Assembly: GCA_012727555.1 (NCBI GenBank)
Contig: JAAYGT010000157.1
Span: 1-64,000, forward strand
Source: Alcaligenaceae bacterium
Lineage (GTDB): Bacteria > Pseudomonadota > Gammaproteobacteria > Burkholderiales > Burkholderiaceae_B
Length of the DNA stretch: 64,000 nt
Direction of reading: 5' to 3'
Shown here: positions 42,926 to 57,905 of the stretch, piece after piece
How the letters are laid out: each line of letters begins with the position of its first letter
Numbering within the stretch: position 1 is the first letter of the stretch
Notes under the pieces: model-generated
Told to the model about the DNA's origin: nothing
Database searches by the model: none
What the model saw: the letters and a program-made list of their open reading frames with translations, nothing else
Translations under genes and position numbers: made by a program

Positions 42926-45900
42926 TCAGACGATTCGTTCGATACGTGCGGGTAGCCCTTGCCGAACGGCACCGCCGGATACCCAGTCGATCCAGACGTT
43001 GCGGAAGGTGCCGCGTGTGGCATCGGGAATACCCATTTCATTCAGATTGACACCGGCTGCCAGGGCTTCTTTCATGGGGGTGGGCCGGCCGTCAATACGA
43101 TGCGAACGTGCCCCCAGTTCCTTATGGCCGTAGCCGTGCTCGATGGCGATAGCCCCTTCCATGATGCCATCACGCACCACGGCAACACCTTCCACCGAAC
43201 CGCCGGGGGTTGAAACCCGGATGCGATCACCGTTGCGTATGTTCAGGCGGTCGGCATCGTTGCGGTTGACGGAGATCGGGTTGTGCGGGTGAACCTGGCG
43301 CAAGCGTTCCACACCGATCGACATGGAGCTCATGAGATTCGATTTGTAGGATGTCATGAGCAGGGGCCACTGGTCGTGCGGGAACTGTTCCCGGGCGGCC
43401 CGGCCATCGGCCAGGCGGGTGGGGTACCAGGTGGGGCAACCGTTGTAGCGTTCACCGGTGAGCGCATGGCGCATGCGCCAGAGTTCCTCATTCCAGACCT
43501 GAAGAGCCTGAGTGTGCGCCTTGCGGATATGGTCACCTTTCCAGGCGGCATCGATGGCGTCGAACCGGCCGCCGCGCGTCATGAGCATGGCGACCTTGCG
43601 CCATTCTTCCGGCTTGAGTCCGGATTCAAGCGCAGGGCGGAACCGCGCCACACCGGTGATTTCGAGGTCGTCATCGGAGGCATCGCCAACAACTTTACCG
43701 CCGGCCCAGGCCATGTTGGCCATTGCGCGCAGGTAGAAGTCTTCGGGGGTGTTCAGATGGTGAGTGCCGCCGTCTTTGTCGGCCAGGGCGTTGTCACCGA
43801 AGCCAGGCATGCCCAATGTTTTGGCAACGGCAATCAGGAACACTTCCAGCGAAATGGTTTGCCCGTCGGCGGTTTTGCCAACGGCCGGCACAACGGTGGG
43901 CCAGCGCACGGTGGACGACTTGGCGATGACATCGGCCCAGGGGGCGGAAATGCCCCAGCTTTCGTACGTGACCGTGTCGGGCACGATGTAGTCGGCGTAG
44001 GCGTTGGTTTCGTTGATGAACGGGTTGATCGAAATGAACAGAGGCAGCTCGTTCGGGTCTTTCAGCTTGTCGAGGGCCACATTCTTGAAACCGGGCAAGG
44101 CGTACACCGGGTTGCTCATGTGGTTGATCCAGGCCTTGGCCTTGTAGGGGTAGCCTTCCAGCCCCGACATGATCATTTCACTGCTGATATTACCGGTGGC
44201 CGGGTACCAGGGTGCCTGTGCCGGGTAGGGCGATTGCCCGGCTTCTTTCTTGCGACGGAATTCGCTGGTTTTTTCGTAGGGGAAGCGGGTGCGTGACAGA
44301 GGTACGCCTTTCGGGGCGACACGGCCTTTGAACTGGGCAAAGTTATAACGCGGGCCGGGGCCAAACGGGCCAAAGGGGCCGGCATCCAGCACCAGGCCGC
44401 CTGCCACGTTCAGGTTGCCAACCAGGGTGTTGAGCATGCCGATGGCATAGGCGGTATAGAAGCCGGAGCCGTTCATGCTGCCGCCGTGCGTGTCGGCGAC
44501 CGCCTGTTTGCCAAAGCTGGTGAATTCGCGGGCCAGCGCAATCATGTCATCGACCTTCACACCGCACAGTTCGGCGTATTCATCGAGTGTTTTGCGTTGG
44601 GCATGTGTGCGCAGCATGGCCAGCGACGAGGCCACGCGTACAGGGGTCGGGGCACCGTCGGCGTTCTTGAGCTCGATGACTTCATCAACGAACAGGGTGG
44701 CAGGTGAGGTCTGGGTATGCGGTGCCAGTGTGCCGTCTGTGCCTTTCACAATGAAGACATCGGGCTGTTTTTCATCAGCCGGTTTGGGCCAGCCCAGGTC
44801 GGCGCCGCGGACAAAGGTGCCGAAGCGCGGGTGGTCGGGGTCGGCTACCAGCAGGTGGGTGGCGTTGGTCCAGGACGCTTCGCCGGCTGCTTCCATGGCC
44901 GCAGGGCCTGGTTGGGACAACGACTTCACATCGTAGCGGTCGTTTTCAATGATCCAGCGGATCATGCCCATGACCAGGGCCAGGTCGGTGCCGGGCAGGA
45001 CGGGCTGCCAGCGGTTGCCCGAACCGGCGGCCAGGCTGGATGAGGTCGGCAGGATGGGCGAGACCACGACATAGCGGAAGGTGTTTTCCTTGCGCGAGCG
45101 GGCTTCGGCCAGTTCGCGCCCCTGGCGCTGGAAGGGGTTGCCGGATTGGGCGGGTGCCGAACCGATGAACAGACCGAACCGGGACCGTTTCCAGTCGGGT
45201 TTGCCGTGCGGCAGGCCGCGCAGGTCGCCCAGCATGGCGCCCATGCCGATACGGCGGGACTGGCCGCAGTAGGAACCGTGGTTACTGAAGTTGATGGTAC
45301 CGAAGGATTGTTCGGCAAAGCGGCGCAAAATGCCGGTGCGCCCTTCGTTGGCGGAGTCGTTCACCACCAGCTGGTTTGAGCGGGGGCCGTATTCCGGGTT
45401 TTCAGGGTCGATCAGGGTCTGGGTGTCGTAAATGGCGCGCAGGCCATCCACGTGGCCTTCACCGAACAGGTTTCCGCCTTCGCAGACTTCCTTGACCAGT
45501 TGTTCAAAGGAAATGGTTTCCCATTGGCCGGAGCCGCGTGGGCCCACACGTTTGAGCGGCTGGGTGATGCGGTAGGGGCTTTTCTGTTGTTCCAGCATGG
45601 AGGAACCCCGTGCACAGGCGGTGGCGCGGCCTTCAAGGCCGGCTTCGCCACCCAGCTGGGCATACACCTGGCGCACAGGCGTTTCCATGGGGGCCGGATT
45701 GGTCGTGGCCAGGGGGTGATAGGGGTTGCCGGCTGTACGCAGGATGGTGTTGGTTTCGGTGTCAACACGGACCCGAACGCCGCATTGGGTCCAGCAGCCC
45801 AGGCAGCTGGACGTGCTGACCACCTGGCCGGGCTGGGTGGTGAGGGTGCCGGTGGCCGGGTCAATACGGAATTCAGGGGTCAGCGAGTTGCCCCGTACGG

Positions 45901-46102
45901 CATCGGCCGTGGGGGCGCCGGCGGTGCCGGTGATCAGGCCTTTGGCCGCTTTCACAACGGTGTCGCCGTAACCGGCCGCAAAGGCCGCCAGACCACCGGC
46001 CGCCACACCACCACGCAGCATCATGGTGCGACGTGTGGTGTTGACTGTTTCCTGTACTGCGGACTCTTCAGGGGTATTCGGGGTGTTTTTTGTGGTGCTC
46101 AT
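42926..46102 (-). CDS. ttrA: tetrathionate reductase catalytic subunit
   Basis: This 1058-aa molybdopterin oxidoreductase has a Tat signal with NTTRRTMMLRGG at residues 21-32. A [4Fe-4S] motif follows, with Cys100, Cys103 and Cys107 (SCLGCWTQCGV) and a distal cysteine in ATACARGSS. The active-site region NHGSYCGQSRRIG and a C-terminal cofactor domain come later. Length, Tat signal and the ttrB-ttrC-ttrA order agree with TtrA of Salmonella, which reduces tetrathionate to thiosulfate in the periplasm. The start at 46102 is chosen because the longer frame puts 36 residues before the Tat signal. The two-component ttrSR genes are absent. A related sulfur oxyanion enzyme cannot be excluded. Confidence 0.87.
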   Translation of the reverse strand: MSTTKNTPNTPEESAVQETVNTTRRTMMLRGGVAAGGLAAFAAGYGDTVVKAAKGLITGTAGAPTADAVRGNSLTPEFRIDPATGTLTTQPGQVVSTSSCLGCWTQCGVRVRVDTETNTILRTAGNPYHPLATTNPAPMETPVRQVYAQLGGEAGLEGRATACARGSSMLEQQKSPYRITQPLKRVGPRGSGQWETISFEQLVKEVCEGGNLFGEGHVDGLRAIYDTQTLIDPENPEYGPRSNQLVVNDSANEGRTGILRRFAEQSFGTINFSNHGSYCGQSRRIGMGAMLGDLRGLPHGKPDWKRSRFGLFIGSAPAQSGNPFQRQGRELAEARSRKENTFRYVVVSPILPTSSSLAAGSGNRWQPVLPGTDLALVMGMIRWIIENDRYDVKSLSQPGPAAMEAAGEASWTNATHLLVADPDHPRFGTFVRGADLGWPKPADEKQPDVFIVKGTDGTLAPHTQTSPATLFVDEVIELKNADGAPTPVRVASSLAMLRTHAQRKTLDEYAELCGVKVDDMIALAREFTSFGKQAVADTHGGSMNGSGFYTAYAIGMLNTLVGNLNVAGGLVLDAGPFGPFGPGPRYNFAQFKGRVAPKGVPLSRTRFPYEKTSEFRRKKEAGQSPYPAQAPWYPATGNISSEMIMSGLEGYPYKAKAWINHMSNPVYALPGFKNVALDKLKDPNELPLFISINPFINETNAYADYIVPDTVTYESWGISAPWADVIAKSSTVRWPTVVPAVGKTADGQTISLEVFLIAVAKTLGMPGFGDNALADKDGGTHHLNTPEDFYLRAMANMAWAGGKVVGDASDDDLEITGVARFRPALESGLKPEEWRKVAMLMTRGGRFDAIDAAWKGDHIRKAHTQALQVWNEELWRMRHALTGERYNGCPTWYPTRLADGRAAREQFPHDQWPLLMTSYKSNLMSSMSIGVERLRQVHPHNPISVNRNDADRLNIRNGDRIRVSTPGGSVEGVAVVRDGIMEGAIAIEHGYGHKELGARSHRIDGRPTPMKEALAAGVNLNEMGIPDATRGTFRNVWIDWVSGGAVRQGLPARIERIV

Positions 46103-46116
46103 GATGGGGGTCCTGT

Positions 46117-47169
46117 TCAGTGACGGGGCGCAGCGTGCAGGGCGGCGTGCGCAGTGCGTGCGGGCAGGTAGTCGAAGGCGATGCTGACGAGGGCGATCAG
46201 GGCAATGCACAGGCCCAGTACGCCCGCCATGCCCAGCAGGCCGTCACTGCCCAGCGGCATGCTGTACAGGTACAACCCGGCACCGTATTTAGGTACGCCC
46301 TGTACCCCCATGAAGAGAATCCAGCGGAAAATCCAGGCGGTGGCCAGCATCGCCGCAGCGATCAGCAGGGAATACAGGCGTGCGGTATGACGTTCAGCCG
46401 GCGCCAGCACGAGGGCCAGAATGATCAGGCCTGCGGCAATGGACCCGAACAGGCTCAGACGCCAGACCGGGAAGAGGTCAAACAGGCGCACTGCTGTATC
46501 GAAGGACGCGTCAAGCCCTGCCAGGCCGGCGGCCACCCACAGTGCCGCACAGGCCATCAGCAGCACAACGGCGCTCAGGCTCAGACGACGCAGCGTTGCG
46601 GCCGGCAGGGCCTGCAACCCACCGGGCAGCCAGCGTGCAACCAGCAGGATGGCACCCAGGGCAGCCAACCAGCCAGTCAGGGCAAAATTCAGCGGCAGAA
46701 AAGGTGTGTTCCACAGGGGGCGGGAGTGCACGGCCATCACTTCGGCACCCGTGTACACCAGAATAGAGGCGGCCGAAGCTGCGAGCAGGACGGCCAGCAC
46801 CTTGAGCAGACCGGGGCGGTGGGTCCACCAGGCCAGGGCAAACAGCAGGGTCAGGCCAATGAACACCGGCAGCAGCAGGGCACCGATGGACATCCACGAC
46901 CAGGGGGTGAAGTGGGCATAAAAATGCCAGAACCGGCCAGGCTGATGCAGGTCGGCCAGCAGGGACACAGGAGCGGACAGGGCGCTGACCAGCAGTACCG
47001 CCACAATAGCCGGCAGCAGGCGTGACATGCCCGAGCCGGCTGGCGCCAACGCCGCGGCCGCAGCCATGAGTGCCGAGGTGGCACAGATGCCGATCAGGAA
47101 AAAGTACTGGACCGCCCAGGGCAGCCAGGCGACCTCGTAGGCCGGGGTAAGTAATTCGATGATGTTCAT
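46117..47169 (-). CDS. ttrC: tetrathionate reductase membrane subunit (NrfD family)
   Basis: This 350-aa NrfD/TtrC-type quinol-oxidising membrane anchor has eight to nine helices. The N-terminus, with VAWLPWAVQYFFLIGI then LADLHQPGRFWHFYAH and FTPWSWMSIGALLLP, matches TtrC closely. It passes electrons from quinol to TtrB and TtrA. It starts 37 bp after ttrB and ends 14 bp before ttrA. Confidence 0.9.
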   Translation of the reverse strand: MNIIELLTPAYEVAWLPWAVQYFFLIGICATSALMAAAAALAPAGSGMSRLLPAIVAVLLVSALSAPVSLLADLHQPGRFWHFYAHFTPWSWMSIGALLLPVFIGLTLLFALAWWTHRPGLLKVLAVLLAASAASILVYTGAEVMAVHSRPLWNTPFLPLNFALTGWLAALGAILLVARWLPGGLQALPAATLRRLSLSAVVLLMACAALWVAAGLAGLDASFDTAVRLFDLFPVWRLSLFGSIAAGLIILALVLAPAERHTARLYSLLIAAAMLATAWIFRWILFMGVQGVPKYGAGLYLYSMPLGSDGLLGMAGVLGLCIALIALVSIAFDYLPARTAHAALHAAPRH

Positions 47170-47206: not shown

Positions 47207-47974
47207 TCAGTGATCGGAAACCAGACGTACACTGGCCTGGCCATCGATACCATTGACGAATTCATCGGGCATGCCGATGTAAAAAACGTGAGGCGATGTG
47301 CCCATGCCGGGTTTCAGCACTTTGACGTCGTTGCTGTTTTCCTTCAGGGTGCGCGAAATGGTGCTTTCCGGATCGTTCAGGTCACCAATGACGCGGGCGC
47401 CCCCCACGCAGCTTTCCACACAGGCCGGCAACAGGCCGGCTTCCAGGCGGTGTTCGCAGAAGGTGCATTTGTCGGCGGTTTGTGTTTCGTGGTTGATGAA
47501 ACGGGCATCGTACGGACATGCCTGCACGCAGTAGCCGCAGCCGACACACCGTTCGTTGTCGACCAGCACAATGCCGTCTTCACGCTGGAACGTGGCCTGC
47601 ACCGGGCAGACGGGAACACAAGGCGGGTTGTCGCAGTGGTTGCACAGACGCGGCAGGCTGAACATGGCTGGCGCATCGGTTTCGGGGAGAGCGACTTCGT
47701 ACTGAAGGACGGTGGTGCGAAACTGACCAATGGGTGGCTGGTTTTCCAGCGAGCAACTGACCGTACAGGCCTGGCAGCCGATGCACTTGCGCAGATCAAC
47801 CACCATGCCGTACCGCTTGCCGGCCATGCCTGGCCGGCGCGGCGGTTGTGTTGCGGCGGTGGCAGGTTGGATGGGAATGACGGTGGCCGTGGCGCTCAGG
47901 CCCAGCAGGCCTTTAAGGAAGCCTCGCTTCCCTGGTTGAAGCGGCCGGCGTATTTCTTCGTGCTGCAGTGTCAT
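47207..47974 (-). CDS. ttrB: tetrathionate reductase iron-sulfur subunit
   Basis: This 255-aa ferredoxin-like subunit has four cysteine clusters for [4Fe-4S] centres: CIGCQACTVSC, CNHCDNPPCVPVC, CVGCGYCVQAC and CTFCEHRLEAGLLPAC. The Tat signal is GKRGFLKGLLGL, with Lys-Arg in place of the usual twin Arg; the same rare KR form is known in Salmonella TtrB. An upstream Met (48004 region) would lengthen the signal; 47974 is preferred. It is the first gene of ttrBCA. Confidence 0.92.
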   Translation of the reverse strand: MTLQHEEIRRPLQPGKRGFLKGLLGLSATATVIPIQPATAATQPPRRPGMAGKRYGMVVDLRKCIGCQACTVSCSLENQPPIGQFRTTVLQYEVALPETDAPAMFSLPRLCNHCDNPPCVPVCPVQATFQREDGIVLVDNERCVGCGYCVQACPYDARFINHETQTADKCTFCEHRLEAGLLPACVESCVGGARVIGDLNDPESTISRTLKENSNDVKVLKPGMGTSPHVFYIGMPDEFVNGIDGQASVRLVSDH

Positions 47975-48006
47975 GATCGGGTCTCTTGGTGCTGTTTCAT
48001 GCATGG

Positions 48007-48036
48007 AAAGCATGATTCGGTCTTGAATGATGCTTT
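48007..48036 (-). promoter_or_regulatory. imperfect inverted repeat in the ttrB leader
   Basis: AAAGCATGATT (48007-48017) and AATGATGCTTT (48026-48036) match at 10 of 11 positions with an 8-nt spacer. It lies between the tandem palindromes and the ttrB start and could be a hairpin in the leader RNA or another protein site. Confidence 0.45.
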
Positions 48037-48039
48037 CTT

Positions 48040-48075
48040 AAGGTTATAACCTTATTACTAAAAGGGATAACCCTT
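48040..48075. promoter_or_regulatory. tandem palindromes between ttrBCA and the SLC13 permease
   Basis: AAGGTTATAACCTT (48040-48053) is a perfect 14-bp palindrome. AAGGGATAACCCTT (48062-48075) is a close relative with arms AAGGG/CCCTT. Their centres are 22 bp apart, two helical turns, so a dimeric regulator could bind both on one face. Both are followed by TATT on the plus strand. They do not look like FNR, ArcA or ModE sites. Confidence 0.6.
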
Positions 48076-48280
48076 ATTGAGATGTATCAAGTGACCTGCC
48101 GATGTGTTGAAAATCAGTGCATTTCCCAGCGGTTAAAATGGCGCTGGCGTTTTTGCTCCTTGGGGTTTGTTGTCGTACCGGGGGCAAACAGCGCCGACAC
48201 ATTCATTGCCCGTGGCGTTTCGGCCGGAACCTTCCCCGCGTCCGTGCGCTGTACGGCCTCTTTCTTCAGGTTGTCTTTTT

Positions 48281-50122
48281 ATGCCCTCCGGTCTTGCCCT
48301 GAACCAGGAACTGCTGCTGGTTCTGGGATTGTTGTGCTGTGCGGTCGTCATGTTTGCCCGCAACAAGCCTCGCATGGATGTCGTGGCCCTGCTCATGATG
48401 GTGGCGCTGCCTTTGACCGGCGTCATTTCGCCCACCGAAGCGCTGATGGGGCTCAGCGACCCCAATATTGTGCTGATCGCGGCGTTGTTCGTGATCGGGG
48501 AGGGGCTGGTGCGTACGGGTGTGGCCCAGCAACTGGGCGATTGGCTGACGCGGCGTGCGGGTGCCAGCGAGACGCGTCTGCTGGTTTTGCTGATGATGAT
48601 CGTTGCCGGCGTGGGTGCGTTCATGAGTTCCACCGGGGTCGTGGCCATTTTCATTCCCATCGTGTTGCGCATTGCCCGTCAGGCTGACATTCCTGCCGCC
48701 CGCTTGATGATGCCTTTGTCGGTGGCCGCGTTGATCAGCGGCATGATGACGCTGGTGGCTACCGCCCCTAACCTGGTGATCCAGGCAGAGCTGGTCCGGC
48801 GTGGGCATGACGGTTTCGGCTTTTTCAGTTTCACGCCATTTGGCGTGCCGATTCTTGTACTGGCTCTGGTGTACATGGTGGTGGTCCGGCGTTTTCTGGG
48901 GCGAGATGACGCAGGCGTGGTTTCGGCCCGACCGTTGTGGTCCGACTGGGTCCGTCAGTACGGACTGGCCGGACGTGACCGGCGTCTGCTGGTTACGCCG
49001 GAATCCCTGCTGCCGGGCGAAACCCTGGAAAGTCTGAATTTGCGCGGCAGCATGGGCATCAATATTCTGGCCATCGAGCGACCGCGTCGTTTTGGCTACG
49101 ACTTGATCGAGGCCCGTGGCCGTACACGCCTGAAGGCGGGCGACGTGCTGTTGATCGATATACGCAATCCGGATTTCGACATGGATGCATTTTGCCAGGC
49201 GCATCGCATCCAGGACATGCCTTTGTCGGGTGTGTATTTTCGTGATCGCTTCCAGGAAATGGGCATGGCCGAAGTGCTTGTTTCGCCCAATGCCCGCATG
49301 ATTGGCAAGACGCTGCTCGACCTGCGTTTCCGGTCGGTGTTCGACGTCACTGTCGTTGGCCTGCGGCATGGCAAGCAGCCGGTGTCCGGTTCCGTGGTTG
49401 AGGAGTCTTTGCAGGCCGGTGATACCTTGCTGGTGGTCGGTACCTGGCGTGCCATCCGAAGGCTGGCCCAGAACCGCCGTGATCTGATCGTGCTCGATTT
49501 GCCGGCCGAGTCTGATGACGTTGCCCCGGCCCGGCGCAACGGGCCCTTTGCCCTGTTCACCCTGTTGCTGGTTATTGCCATGATGGTCACAGGGGTGGTC
49601 AGCAATGTCCAGGCGGCGCTGATCGGTTGTTTACTGCTGGGGTGGTTCAAGTGCATTGACATGCCAGCGGCGTATCGCTCCATTCACTGGCAAAGTCTGG
49701 TCCTGATTGTCGGCATGTTGCCCTTTTCCCTGGCCTTGCAGCGTACCGGAGGCATCGACCTGGCGGCGCAGGGCTTGCTGGCCGCCCTGGATGGGGTGGG
49801 CCCTCAGGGGGTGCTGGCCGCAGTGTTTGCCACCACGGCCGTGCTGGGGCTGTTCATTTCCAACACCGCCACTGCGGTTCTCATGACGCCTGTCGCTCTG
49901 GCGATTGCCCAGGTGCTGAACGCTTCGCCCTACCCGTTTGCCATGACGGTTGCGCTCGCTTCGTCGGCGGCGTTCATGACGCCGGTGTCCTCGCCTGTCA
50001 ACACGCTGGTGGTCGGGCCGGGTAATTACCGTTTCATGGACTTCGTGATCTTTGGTGTGCCGCTGACCGTGCTGGTCATGGGCCTGACCGTGTTTCTGGT
50101 GCCCCGGCTGTTGCCGTTTTAG
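48281..50122 (+). CDS. SLC13/DASS-family permease with RCK-C (TrkA-C) domains
   Basis: This 613-aa permease has membrane segments in its first ~190 and last ~180 residues. The motifs VVAIFIPIVLRIARQ and LVATAPNLVIQAELV are characteristic. Between the halves lies a soluble part with two TrkA-C-like domains (about 210-380: LLPGETLESLNLRGSMG, then MIGKTLLDLRFRSVFDV). The second membrane half has LFISNTATAVLMTPVALAIA and MTPVSSPVNTLVVGP. Members carry dicarboxylates or sulfur oxyanions such as sulfate. It is divergent from ttrBCA, making a sulfur oxyanion substrate attractive but unproven. Confidence 0.85.
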   Translation: MPSGLALNQELLLVLGLLCCAVVMFARNKPRMDVVALLMMVALPLTGVISPTEALMGLSDPNIVLIAALFVIGEGLVRTGVAQQLGDWLTRRAGASETRLLVLLMMIVAGVGAFMSSTGVVAIFIPIVLRIARQADIPAARLMMPLSVAALISGMMTLVATAPNLVIQAELVRRGHDGFGFFSFTPFGVPILVLALVYMVVVRRFLGRDDAGVVSARPLWSDWVRQYGLAGRDRRLLVTPESLLPGETLESLNLRGSMGINILAIERPRRFGYDLIEARGRTRLKAGDVLLIDIRNPDFDMDAFCQAHRIQDMPLSGVYFRDRFQEMGMAEVLVSPNARMIGKTLLDLRFRSVFDVTVVGLRHGKQPVSGSVVEESLQAGDTLLVVGTWRAIRRLAQNRRDLIVLDLPAESDDVAPARRNGPFALFTLLLVIAMMVTGVVSNVQAALIGCLLLGWFKCIDMPAAYRSIHWQSLVLIVGMLPFSLALQRTGGIDLAAQGLLAALDGVGPQGVLAAVFATTAVLGLFISNTATAVLMTPVALAIAQVLNASPYPFAMTVALASSAAFMTPVSSPVNTLVVGPGNYRFMDFVIFGVPLTVLVMGLTVFLVPRLLPF

Positions 50123-55394: not shown

Positions 55395-57905
55395 TTGACC
55401 CGGGACGATTCCGCGCCTGATCCGCAAGCTACCCGGATAACGCTATTCCTTGGCAGACGCTCCGGCGTCCTGCTGGTCGAATGTCTTGCTGTTTTGGCCA
55501 TTATTGCCTTTGTTGTTGTGCAATTGGTCGCGGATCGCAACCGGATCAAGTCGGTCATCAGCGAAGAGTCTTCACGCATGCAGGCTGTTGTTGCCGACAG
55601 TACGGGTCAAATGCTGGCATTGCTCGAGCAGGTGCTTGCCGCACTGGCCTCCGATCTGGCCAGGCAGGGTAGTGCAACGGTGCCCGGGCGGTCGTTCGAT
55701 CTTCACACACAGCTCGCGGCCAGTCAGCGGGGCCTTGCTTTTGTCGAGTCACTGTTCGTTCTCGATGCCCAGGGCGCCCTGCTGGCCGATTCCCGGGCTG
55801 TACTTCGCCCGGGCGACAATCAAGGCAGCCATCCGGTTTTTCAGGAGCAGGTGCGTACTGACCGGATCGGTGTGTTTCTGGTGTCCGCTCCGCCGCTTGC
55901 TGCCGGGTCGATCACGCCCGGCCTGCTGTATGCCAGCATCCCGTGGTTCGATCACACGGGGGTGTTCGGTGGCGTGATTGCTGCGGTGTTGTCAACCGAG
56001 GCTTTGTCTTTTTCATTTGAACGTCTCAGGGCGCACCCCGATGACGTCATCGGTCTGGCCCGTGCGGATGGTCAGCTTCTGGTCCGTAATCCCTATCTGA
56101 TCGACGTGCGCGAAGGCGCGCTGCTGGACGCTTACCGGACAGCAGCGCGCAGCGTTGAGTATGTGGGTAGTGCGTATCGCGAGGAGCAGGGGCCGTTCAG
56201 AATCGATCGTCTTGTCAGCTACCGCAAGGTTCGCAACTTTCCAGTGGTGGCTTTTGTCGGCCTGGCACTGGAGCCCCGCTTGCAGCCCTGGGTCAGTCGT
56301 GCCTGGATGCACGCAGCCTGGGGTTTTCTTGCACTGGTGCTGGTGCTGGGATCGGGCCAGCTCTGGCGCTATGGTCTGCGTGCCCGGGAGCGGGAAAATA
56401 CAGCACGGCTTACCCGCATGAATGGCCTGGTTCGAGCCTCATCTGAATTGATCGCCTGTGCCGGGGTGGCTGATGTCATGCAAACGCTGGTCGATCTGGC
56501 ACGGGAACTTGTGCCGTGCCGGCATGCGCGTATCGACATGGACAGCGGCCCAGGGTTGCTTGAGCAAGAGTTTGCGGTGTCCGGTGATCGCGGCTTGCGG
56601 GGCGAAAGCCCGTGTGACGGGCAGGGCCCGTCCATTTCGGCCCGGCTGCTTGATACCCGGGGCAAAGCGATCGGGGCGATTGTCCTCCGGGGGCCTTTGT
56701 CCGGCCGGTTTGTGGTGCATGATCACGCGGTGCTGAACGAACTTGCCCAGGTGGCCAGTCTGGTTATCCAGAAAATCCAGGCGGAAGTGGTCAGCCGTGA
56801 AGCGGGTCGCGAACTGGAGACGGTGCTCAATTCCATGTCGGATGCCGTATGTCACTTTGATCACGACTGGAAGTTCACGTTCGCCAATGCCCACGCGGTC
56901 AAGTTGCTGGCAAAGCCTGCCAATGCGTTGTTGGGGCAGTGTGTCTGGGATGTCGTACCCTCGGTGCGTCATTCGTTCATGCAGGCCCAGTGCCAGTGGG
57001 CCGCCAGAAATTGCAAAGATGTCGATTTTGAATTCTATTCCGAACGCCTGCAGGGGTGGTTCCACTTTCGTGCCTTTCCTGATGCCCACGGCCTGACCCT
57101 GTATTTCCAGGATATCACCGACCACAAAGCGCGTGACGAGCAATTGCGCCAGGCAAACCGCCTCGAGGCCATGGTCAGGTTGGCGGGTAGTGTGGCCCAT
57201 GATTTCAATCATGTGCTGGGCACGATCCACCACTCGGCCGAGCAGCTGACCGGGTGTCTGGAGGGGCAGCCGGTTGTGCGCCAGAAAGCATTTGAGCTGC
57301 TGCACGCCGCCCGGCAGGGTATTCGTCTGGCTCGGCCTTTGCTGGCATTTGCCCGCCGTCAACCCCTGACACCCCAGACCATTGACCCAGGCCGCGTGCT
57401 GTTTGAAAACCTGGCACGTTTCAAAGAGGCTCTGGGCCACACGGCCCATTTGAACATCAGTGTTGTCAATCTCTCCGAACCATGGCTCATTCATGTCGAT
57501 GTGCCCTTGTTCTTCGATGTGATCCAGAGTGTCTGCCTGAATGCGCGTGATGCCATGGGGGAGGGCGGTGAGGTGGTGGTTCGCGTGACGTGCACCACGC
57601 TGCATGCCGGTGACATTGCCTCTCTGGACGCCATTGTGCCGGGCGAGTATGTGCTGATTACCGTCTCCGATTCCGGGGTTGGCATGACGCAAAGTGAGCT
57701 GGAGCGGGTGTTTGATCCCTTCTATACCACCAAGGCCGCGATCGGAGGCAGTGGCCTTGGGTTGAGCATGGTGCACGGGTTTGTCAGGCAGTCCGGCGGG
57801 GCGATCCGTATTTACTCGCAGCCTGGCGAAGGCACCACGGTGCAGATCTATCTGCCCCGTGTGGAATACGATCTTCAGGCTGCCGATTCGCTGGAGCTGG
57901 CATAA
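55395..57905 (+). CDS. orphan membrane sensor histidine kinase (Cache-like, GAF, PAS, kinase)
   Basis: This 836-aa kinase starts at TTG behind AAGGAG. A helix at about 24-46 and another at about 303-325 enclose a periplasmic sensor of about 255 residues resembling a double Cache domain. Then come a GAF-like region (about 345-465), a PAS domain (about 475-580), the phospho-acceptor region LAGSVAHDFNHVLGTI with His602, and the ATPase domain (CLNARDAM, VSDSGVGM, FDPFYTTK, GSGLGLSMVHGF). There is no receiver domain and no response regulator gene nearby. The ligand and partner are unknown. Confidence 0.88.
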   Translation: MTRDDSAPDPQATRITLFLGRRSGVLLVECLAVLAIIAFVVVQLVADRNRIKSVISEESSRMQAVVADSTGQMLALLEQVLAALASDLARQGSATVPGRSFDLHTQLAASQRGLAFVESLFVLDAQGALLADSRAVLRPGDNQGSHPVFQEQVRTDRIGVFLVSAPPLAAGSITPGLLYASIPWFDHTGVFGGVIAAVLSTEALSFSFERLRAHPDDVIGLARADGQLLVRNPYLIDVREGALLDAYRTAARSVEYVGSAYREEQGPFRIDRLVSYRKVRNFPVVAFVGLALEPRLQPWVSRAWMHAAWGFLALVLVLGSGQLWRYGLRARERENTARLTRMNGLVRASSELIACAGVADVMQTLVDLARELVPCRHARIDMDSGPGLLEQEFAVSGDRGLRGESPCDGQGPSISARLLDTRGKAIGAIVLRGPLSGRFVVHDHAVLNELAQVASLVIQKIQAEVVSREAGRELETVLNSMSDAVCHFDHDWKFTFANAHAVKLLAKPANALLGQCVWDVVPSVRHSFMQAQCQWAARNCKDVDFEFYSERLQGWFHFRAFPDAHGLTLYFQDITDHKARDEQLRQANRLEAMVRLAGSVAHDFNHVLGTIHHSAEQLTGCLEGQPVVRQKAFELLHAARQGIRLARPLLAFARRQPLTPQTIDPGRVLFENLARFKEALGHTAHLNISVVNLSEPWLIHVDVPLFFDVIQSVCLNARDAMGEGGEVVVRVTCTTLHAGDIASLDAIVPGEYVLITVSDSGVGMTQSELERVFDPFYTTKAAIGGSGLGLSMVHGFVRQSGGAIRIYSQPGEGTTVQIYLPRVEYDLQAADSLELA

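Follow-up and report, generated by a model that had tools for sequence, protein, structure and literature searches.

A predicted class II FNR promoter of ttrBCA with an embedded palindrome resembling a recurrent family-wide motif in an Alcaligenaceae bacterium

Introduction

Class II FNR/ANR promoters carry a box centred at -41.5, the classical class II FNR position, and their -10 element lies 22 bp past the box. Tandem-operator repressors, such as those of the lambda/434-like and LexA types, are associated with palindromes about two helical turns apart. For the ttrBCA operon, the available portions of two papers (PMC11293645; PMC5408782) place a TtrR box, GTGG-N4-CCAC, upstream of ttrB together with an FNR-type site. 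In the literature listings consulted, which covered few subscription papers, no account of ttrBCA being controlled by FNR was recognised for bacteria other than gammaproteobacteria.

The DNA analyzed here is a stretch of 64,000 nucleotides from an Alcaligenaceae bacterium (assembly GCA_012727555.1, contig JAAYGT010000157.1), hereafter the window. It encodes ttrBCA on the minus strand and, divergently on the plus strand, a CitMHS/SLC13-type permease, and the region between ttrB and the permease contains two palindromes (Table 1). Like class II FNR/ANR promoters, this region has a box at a predicted position of -41.5 and a 22-bp spacing to the -10 element, while it adds a palindrome between the box and the -10 and another over the putative start. 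As in lambda/434-like and LexA operators, the palindromes are 14 bp long, follow each other at 22 bp and lie around a core promoter; in contrast to those systems, the family of the window offers no candidate protein, and the spacing is variable across the family. The locus shares its operon and an upstream FNR-type site with the TtrR-type ttrB promoter, as far as the latter is covered by the available portions of PMC11293645 and PMC5408782. However, TtrSR genes were not found and the TtrR box is missing in the window promoter. In the loci that carry this box, the FNR-type site comes before it, while in the window promoter the site directly precedes the -10.

Table 1. Features of the ttrBCA region and of the small-protein loci. 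Positions are those of the window unless a locus is named.
Feature	Position	Strand	Sequence, basis or remark
ttrA	42926..46210	-	longest ORF; start provisional
ttrC	46117..47169	-	ORF and profile match
ttrB	47207..47974	-	ATG at 47974, by the G065 protein start; longer ORF starts at 48013
Imperfect hairpin, ttrB leader	48006..48037	-	arms and folding
Palindrome 2	48040..48053	.	AAGGTTATAACCTT; perfect 14-bp; covers the -10 hexamer and the putative start
Putative transcription start of ttrBCA	48042	-	box and -10 geometry
Inferred -10 hexamer	48049..48054	-	TAAGGT; exactly 22 bp after the FNR box
Palindrome 1	48062..48075	.	AAGGGATAACCCTT, in ttrB order AAGGGTTATCCCTT; flanked by the FNR box and -10
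FNR/ANR box	48077..48090	-	TTGATACATCTCAA toward ttrB, plus strand TTGAGATGTATCAA; centre at -41.5 relative to the putative ttrB start
CitMHS/SLC13-type permease	48281..50122	+	TrkA_C domain matches; divergent neighbour
Small-protein loci	L237:1584-1817; L313:1249-1482; L315:1315-1506; L250:1286-1480		

The ttrBCA genes and the neighbouring permease

TtrA, TtrB, and TtrC scored under the curated NCBIfam cut-offs (1363 against 1750, 396 against 416, and 208 against 314 bits, respectively). They are nonetheless clear homologues in the right order, with tetrathionate as the presumed substrate.

An initial annotation of the window had proposed joint control of ttrBCA and the permease. By tblastn, however, the permease adjoined ttrB in none of 129 other loci, the window's own genome aside; these comprised 20 wider, 80 named, and 29 shorter family loci, which are overlapping sets with flanks of about 1.5 to 8 kb. 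The use of tblastn avoided antisense ORFs, which could hide genes. On the permease side of the FNR box, no TANNNT was read at 22 bp, and the geometry from box to -10 fits ttrB and not the permease. Both results argue against the proposed joint control.

Further along the window, positions 55395-57905 encode a large sensor kinase that matched PAS and HATPase, as well as Cache below the threshold. The ORF list contained no response regulator gene adjoining it.

A conserved FNR box and promoter core

The FNR box matched the consensus TTGATNNNNATCAA at nine of 10 positions and lies 1 bp past palindrome 1. The initial annotation had set FNR aside on the grounds that the palindromes do not resemble FNR sites, and this adjoining box was missed. 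Since TTGA-N6-TCAA by itself is expected 0.85 times per window, the weight of the box comes from its conservation. Of 156 ttrB upstream regions, 83 contained a box of at least 9/10 followed after 22 bp by TANNNT, while each of the other spacings between 14 and 31 bp gave the same pair in seven regions or fewer. This conserved spacing among relatives speaks against dismissing FNR. The 156 regions included 79 of 83 family places and 77 of 80 named loci, with some organisms in both, and it is from the named loci that the family is taken to be Alcaligenaceae-type; left out were G027 and G030 (not included), G031 and G014 (too short, contig end), and three named loci that were too short.

The -10 hexamer matched TATAAT at three of six positions, and the start predicted from this geometry places the box at -41.5. 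A sigma-70 scan of positions 47900-48320 found no promoter, which counts neither for nor against an FNR-dependent one. The genome encodes FNR-type proteins (L057 and L058) with, by sequence, N-terminal cysteines and an E-x-x-S-R helix, and the best NCBIfam match of L058 was Fnr at 180.5 bits, under the curated cut-off of 228. Taken across relatives, FNR activation of ttrBCA appears well supported by conservation.

The complete pattern TTGA-N6-TCAA-22-TANNNT occurred at two places in the genome by pattern search. The second (L167; G000 C93:19386-19427) is followed by a gene of the Crp/Fnr family whose product has N-terminal cysteines.

Distribution of TtrSR and TtrR-type boxes

The absence of TtrSR genes, as stated in the initial annotation, was borne out by the searches of the genome. 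The TtrS of a relative matched in the kinase domain only (37%, residues 378-635 of 646), the best TtrR match (42%) was the response regulator just after that kinase, and all six Phosphonate-bd hits were within open frames no longer than 352 aa. Kinase-domain TtrS matches of such kind occurred in 249 of the 268 family genomes.

Among the 79 family ttrB regions, 64 carried an FNR core (box of at least 8/10), and the core did not occur in any of the 13 regions that were assigned to ttrSR; five of these assignments had ttrS directly upstream and eight were made by a genome TtrS match below 1e-100. The 15 regions without a core consisted of these 13 and the loci L018 and L210. L018 contains TTGACATTAGTCAT, 22 bp, and TAGACT, with a box under the threshold, and its genome also encodes a TtrS and a second ttrB (L217). 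L210 has a 9/10-type box (TTGATGTAGGTCAA), but its -10 place reads GAAAAT. FNR cores and ttrSR appear to be almost completely mutually exclusive in these 79 regions, and the TtrSR-less ttrB loci of the family seem mostly to use a class II FNR promoter.

The GTGG-N4-CCAC box was missing from positions 47900-48300. It was present in 26 of the 29 upstream regions of L137-L165, with two Stappia (alphaproteobacteria) and one Marinobacter as the exceptions, and matched in three of the other 131 regions, where two of the matches are one contig counted twice. A candidate TtrR box unlike this one, TAGRT-N6-AYCTA, was found in 18 of 20 ttrSR-type ttrB loci outside L137-L165, a set in which two contigs occur twice. 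The carriers were L015, L016, L021, L023, L033, L087, L088, L094, L095, L123, L177, L178, and L213-L218, while L126 and L136 had no such box. TAGRT-N6-AYCTA was also not found in the window promoter.

In the genome G202, locus L009 includes a possibly decayed TAGRT-N6-AYCTA box (GAGTAAACCCATCTA), which runs from 140 to 126 bp ahead of the ttrB match and is just upstream of the FNR core. The TtrS match of this genome is confined to the kinase domain, and G200 and G203, of the same genus, retain ttrSR. G202 may represent a snapshot of a regulatory switch.

The palindromes and a family-wide motif

The tandem palindromes with 22-bp phasing that had been described in the initial annotation are both present, 22 bp apart from start to start, with six of seven pairs matching and one mismatched pair in palindrome 1. 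Perfect palindromes of 14 bp are common, with 10 in the window and an average of 6.04 in simulated windows. Two palindromes with 5-bp arms that agree in their four outer bases and lie 14-40 bp from each other occurred once in the window, whereas simulated windows averaged 0.035, a measure that was picked after the sites had been seen. A pattern search for the AAGG-N6-CCTT pair with a gap of 5-12 bp found no second place in the genome. The conservation test set by the initial annotation failed in most relatives: AGGG-N4-CCCT of palindrome 1 was within the spacer from box to -10 in two of 67 distinct promoters (the window and G065), and AAGG-N6-CCTT of palindrome 2 was downstream of the box in one of the 67. 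The palindromes are almost private to the window, without broad conservation.

Palindrome 1 contains AGGGTTATCCCT, which is one mismatch (11/12) from AGGGTTWACCCT. Exact copies of AGGGTTWACCCT gave strand counts of 498+516 in the 268 family genomes, against 55+54 for a reversed control (the pattern read backwards, itself a palindrome), and were found in 229 genomes against 65 for the control. At one mismatch, the counts in the window's genome were 21+15 against 6+2. In ten genomes of ten genera, hand-chosen among those with motif matches, the counts were 42+38 against 2+0, and by our own count the 56 distinct sites of these genomes included eight exact pairs no more than 40 bp apart.

Spacings of the tandem pairs differed across the family, from 15 to 34 bp. 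Small uncharacterised proteins had pairs upstream both beside the 3' end of uvrD (23-24 bp, one of 34 bp) and in the interval that separates a pseudouridine-synthase-like gene from one of the RDD type (17-18 bp). Pairs were also found upstream of putA (21 bp in the window's genome and 15 bp in G065); uvrD, putA, and the other genes were named by reading the sequences rather than by a domain scan. Several tandem copies directly precede TATAAT-like hexamers, and further copies fall within frames or close to various genes, LysR-type ones included. The same 12-mer was found 0.4-0.5 kb before the 16S rRNA start at five of 30 loci (L264, L269, L274, L279, and L287), where it is probably in the rRNA leader. 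Because these copies could be an RNA hairpin, the motif need not act as a protein site wherever it occurs.

A weight matrix was built from the tandem and putA sites, with none from ttrB; it takes in two weak putA sites chosen by eye, which slightly favours palindrome 2. Over the 64 kb, palindrome 1 ranked first (17.39) and palindrome 2 third (9.78). The ttrB site of G065, an exact AGGGTTWACCCT in the same place as palindrome 1, scored 19.29, and that of G127, which overlaps the -10, scored 14.95; G202, about as close by TtrB identity, reached just 3.97. Scores of at least 14.9 between the box and the start occurred in three of the 67 distinct promoters, while shuffles averaged 0.04, and none of 4680 shuffled upstream regions attained the score of palindrome 1. 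As a second tandem site, palindrome 2 is a weak match, akin to that of putA (8.23) and far under the strong sites. Weak second sites included those of putA and of C78 (3.79).

Two sets of small proteins (62-79 aa) share D-x-[LI]-E-[RQ] and have AGGGTTWACCCT-like tandem palindromes upstream. They had no match above the cut-off, with six searched in Pfam and four in NCBIfam, and a role as ribbon-helix-helix autoregulators was dropped, as its sole basis was a weak Pfam hit (E 0.16). FadP was considered as the factor because some sites are near acyl-CoA genes, and the available portion of PMC5343134 gave no FadP motif. Among titles and abstract openings retrieved with the letters of the motif, no paper on a bacterial regulator was recognised; one of the titles dealt with bacterial REP elements (PMC2817692).

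Interpretation of the promoter region

The region would be the promoter of ttrBCA, of the class II FNR type, with a box at -41.5, a 22-bp spacing, and a TANNNT -10. Lack of oxygen would switch ttrBCA on, where the box and spacing rest on conservation and the activation and start are predictions. Palindrome 1, in the stretch from the FNR box to the -10, may be a copy of TAGGGTTWACCCTA, which recurs in the family and is often in tandem around the core promoters of putA and the small proteins, while palindrome 2 would span the -10 and the start. A putative dimeric factor on this operator might block RNA polymerase, its likeliest role, and provide a second input besides FNR; a repressor suits best because the site would overlie the RNA polymerase footprint. 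We therefore lean, with moderate confidence, toward anaerobic FNR activation of ttrBCA combined with an operator, probably repressive, for a putative factor. An extra regulator at the ttrB promoter is plausible but unproven. The operator part is weakened by the presence of the motif at that place in just three of 67 promoters, by palindrome 2 being low-scoring and in one of 67, by the score of 3.97 in G202, by the varying pair spacings (15-34 bp), and by the 12-mers that are probably in the rRNA leader. More tentatively, a putative regulator acting on tandem TAGGGTTWACCCTA copies, conserved in the family at core promoters of the small proteins, putA, and others, may in a few genera have come to gate the FNR-driven ttr promoter after the loss of TtrSR.

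The promoter might instead depend on FNR only, with no second regulator and with the palindromes as accidents of an A/T-rich core promoter, in which the -10 region tends to read TAAGNT with TATA after it. The lack of AGGG-N4-CCCT in 65 and of AAGG-N6-CCTT in 66 of the 67 distinct promoters agrees with such accidents, as does the frequent TATA directly after the -10 hexamer in relatives without the palindrome. We consider this rather unlikely, given that no other site in the window matches the motif, which was trained elsewhere, as well as palindrome 1 does, that G065 carries an exact copy in the corresponding place, and that 0 of 4680 shuffles reach the palindrome 1 score. The suggestion of the initial annotation, in which an undescribed regulator dedicated to tetrathionate respiration acts through the tandem palindromes on ttrBCA and the permease jointly, is very improbable. 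While TtrSR was not found and the tandem is unusual and at a single place in the genome, the permease is beside ttrB in 0 of 129 other loci, the motif is not confined to ttr loci, and the FNR box would already provide anaerobic control. The suggestion holds in part, in that palindrome 1 is a member of a motif that recurs across the family and for which no named factor was found; its oversight of FNR does not stand. Equally hard to credit is an origin of the palindromes as relics of a TtrR box after the loss of ttrSR. The ttrSR-bearing relatives have TAGRT-N6-AYCTA upstream of ttrB, and some instances, such as TAGGTATAACCATCTA, loosely resemble AAGGTTATAACCTT; G202 also seems to retain a decayed box. 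However, the half-site spacing is off by 2 bp, and both TAGRT-N6-AYCTA and GTGG-N4-CCAC are missing in the window promoter.

The favoured combination of FNR activation and a putative operator suggests a rewiring of tetrathionate respiration, where a dedicated two-component sensor would have been replaced by a bare oxygen-sensing promoter on which further input may be layered. The analysis also brought to light a palindromic motif that is strong across the family and for which no named factor was found.

A hairpin in the ttrB leader

No leader hairpin was seen by eye in the upstream sequence of G065. In the window, the extra imperfect hairpin reported in the ttrB leader proved to be real: its 13-nt arms (48006-48018 and 48025-48037) are 92% complementary, and the leader (48042-47973) folded at -14.1 kcal/mol, with z = -3.03.
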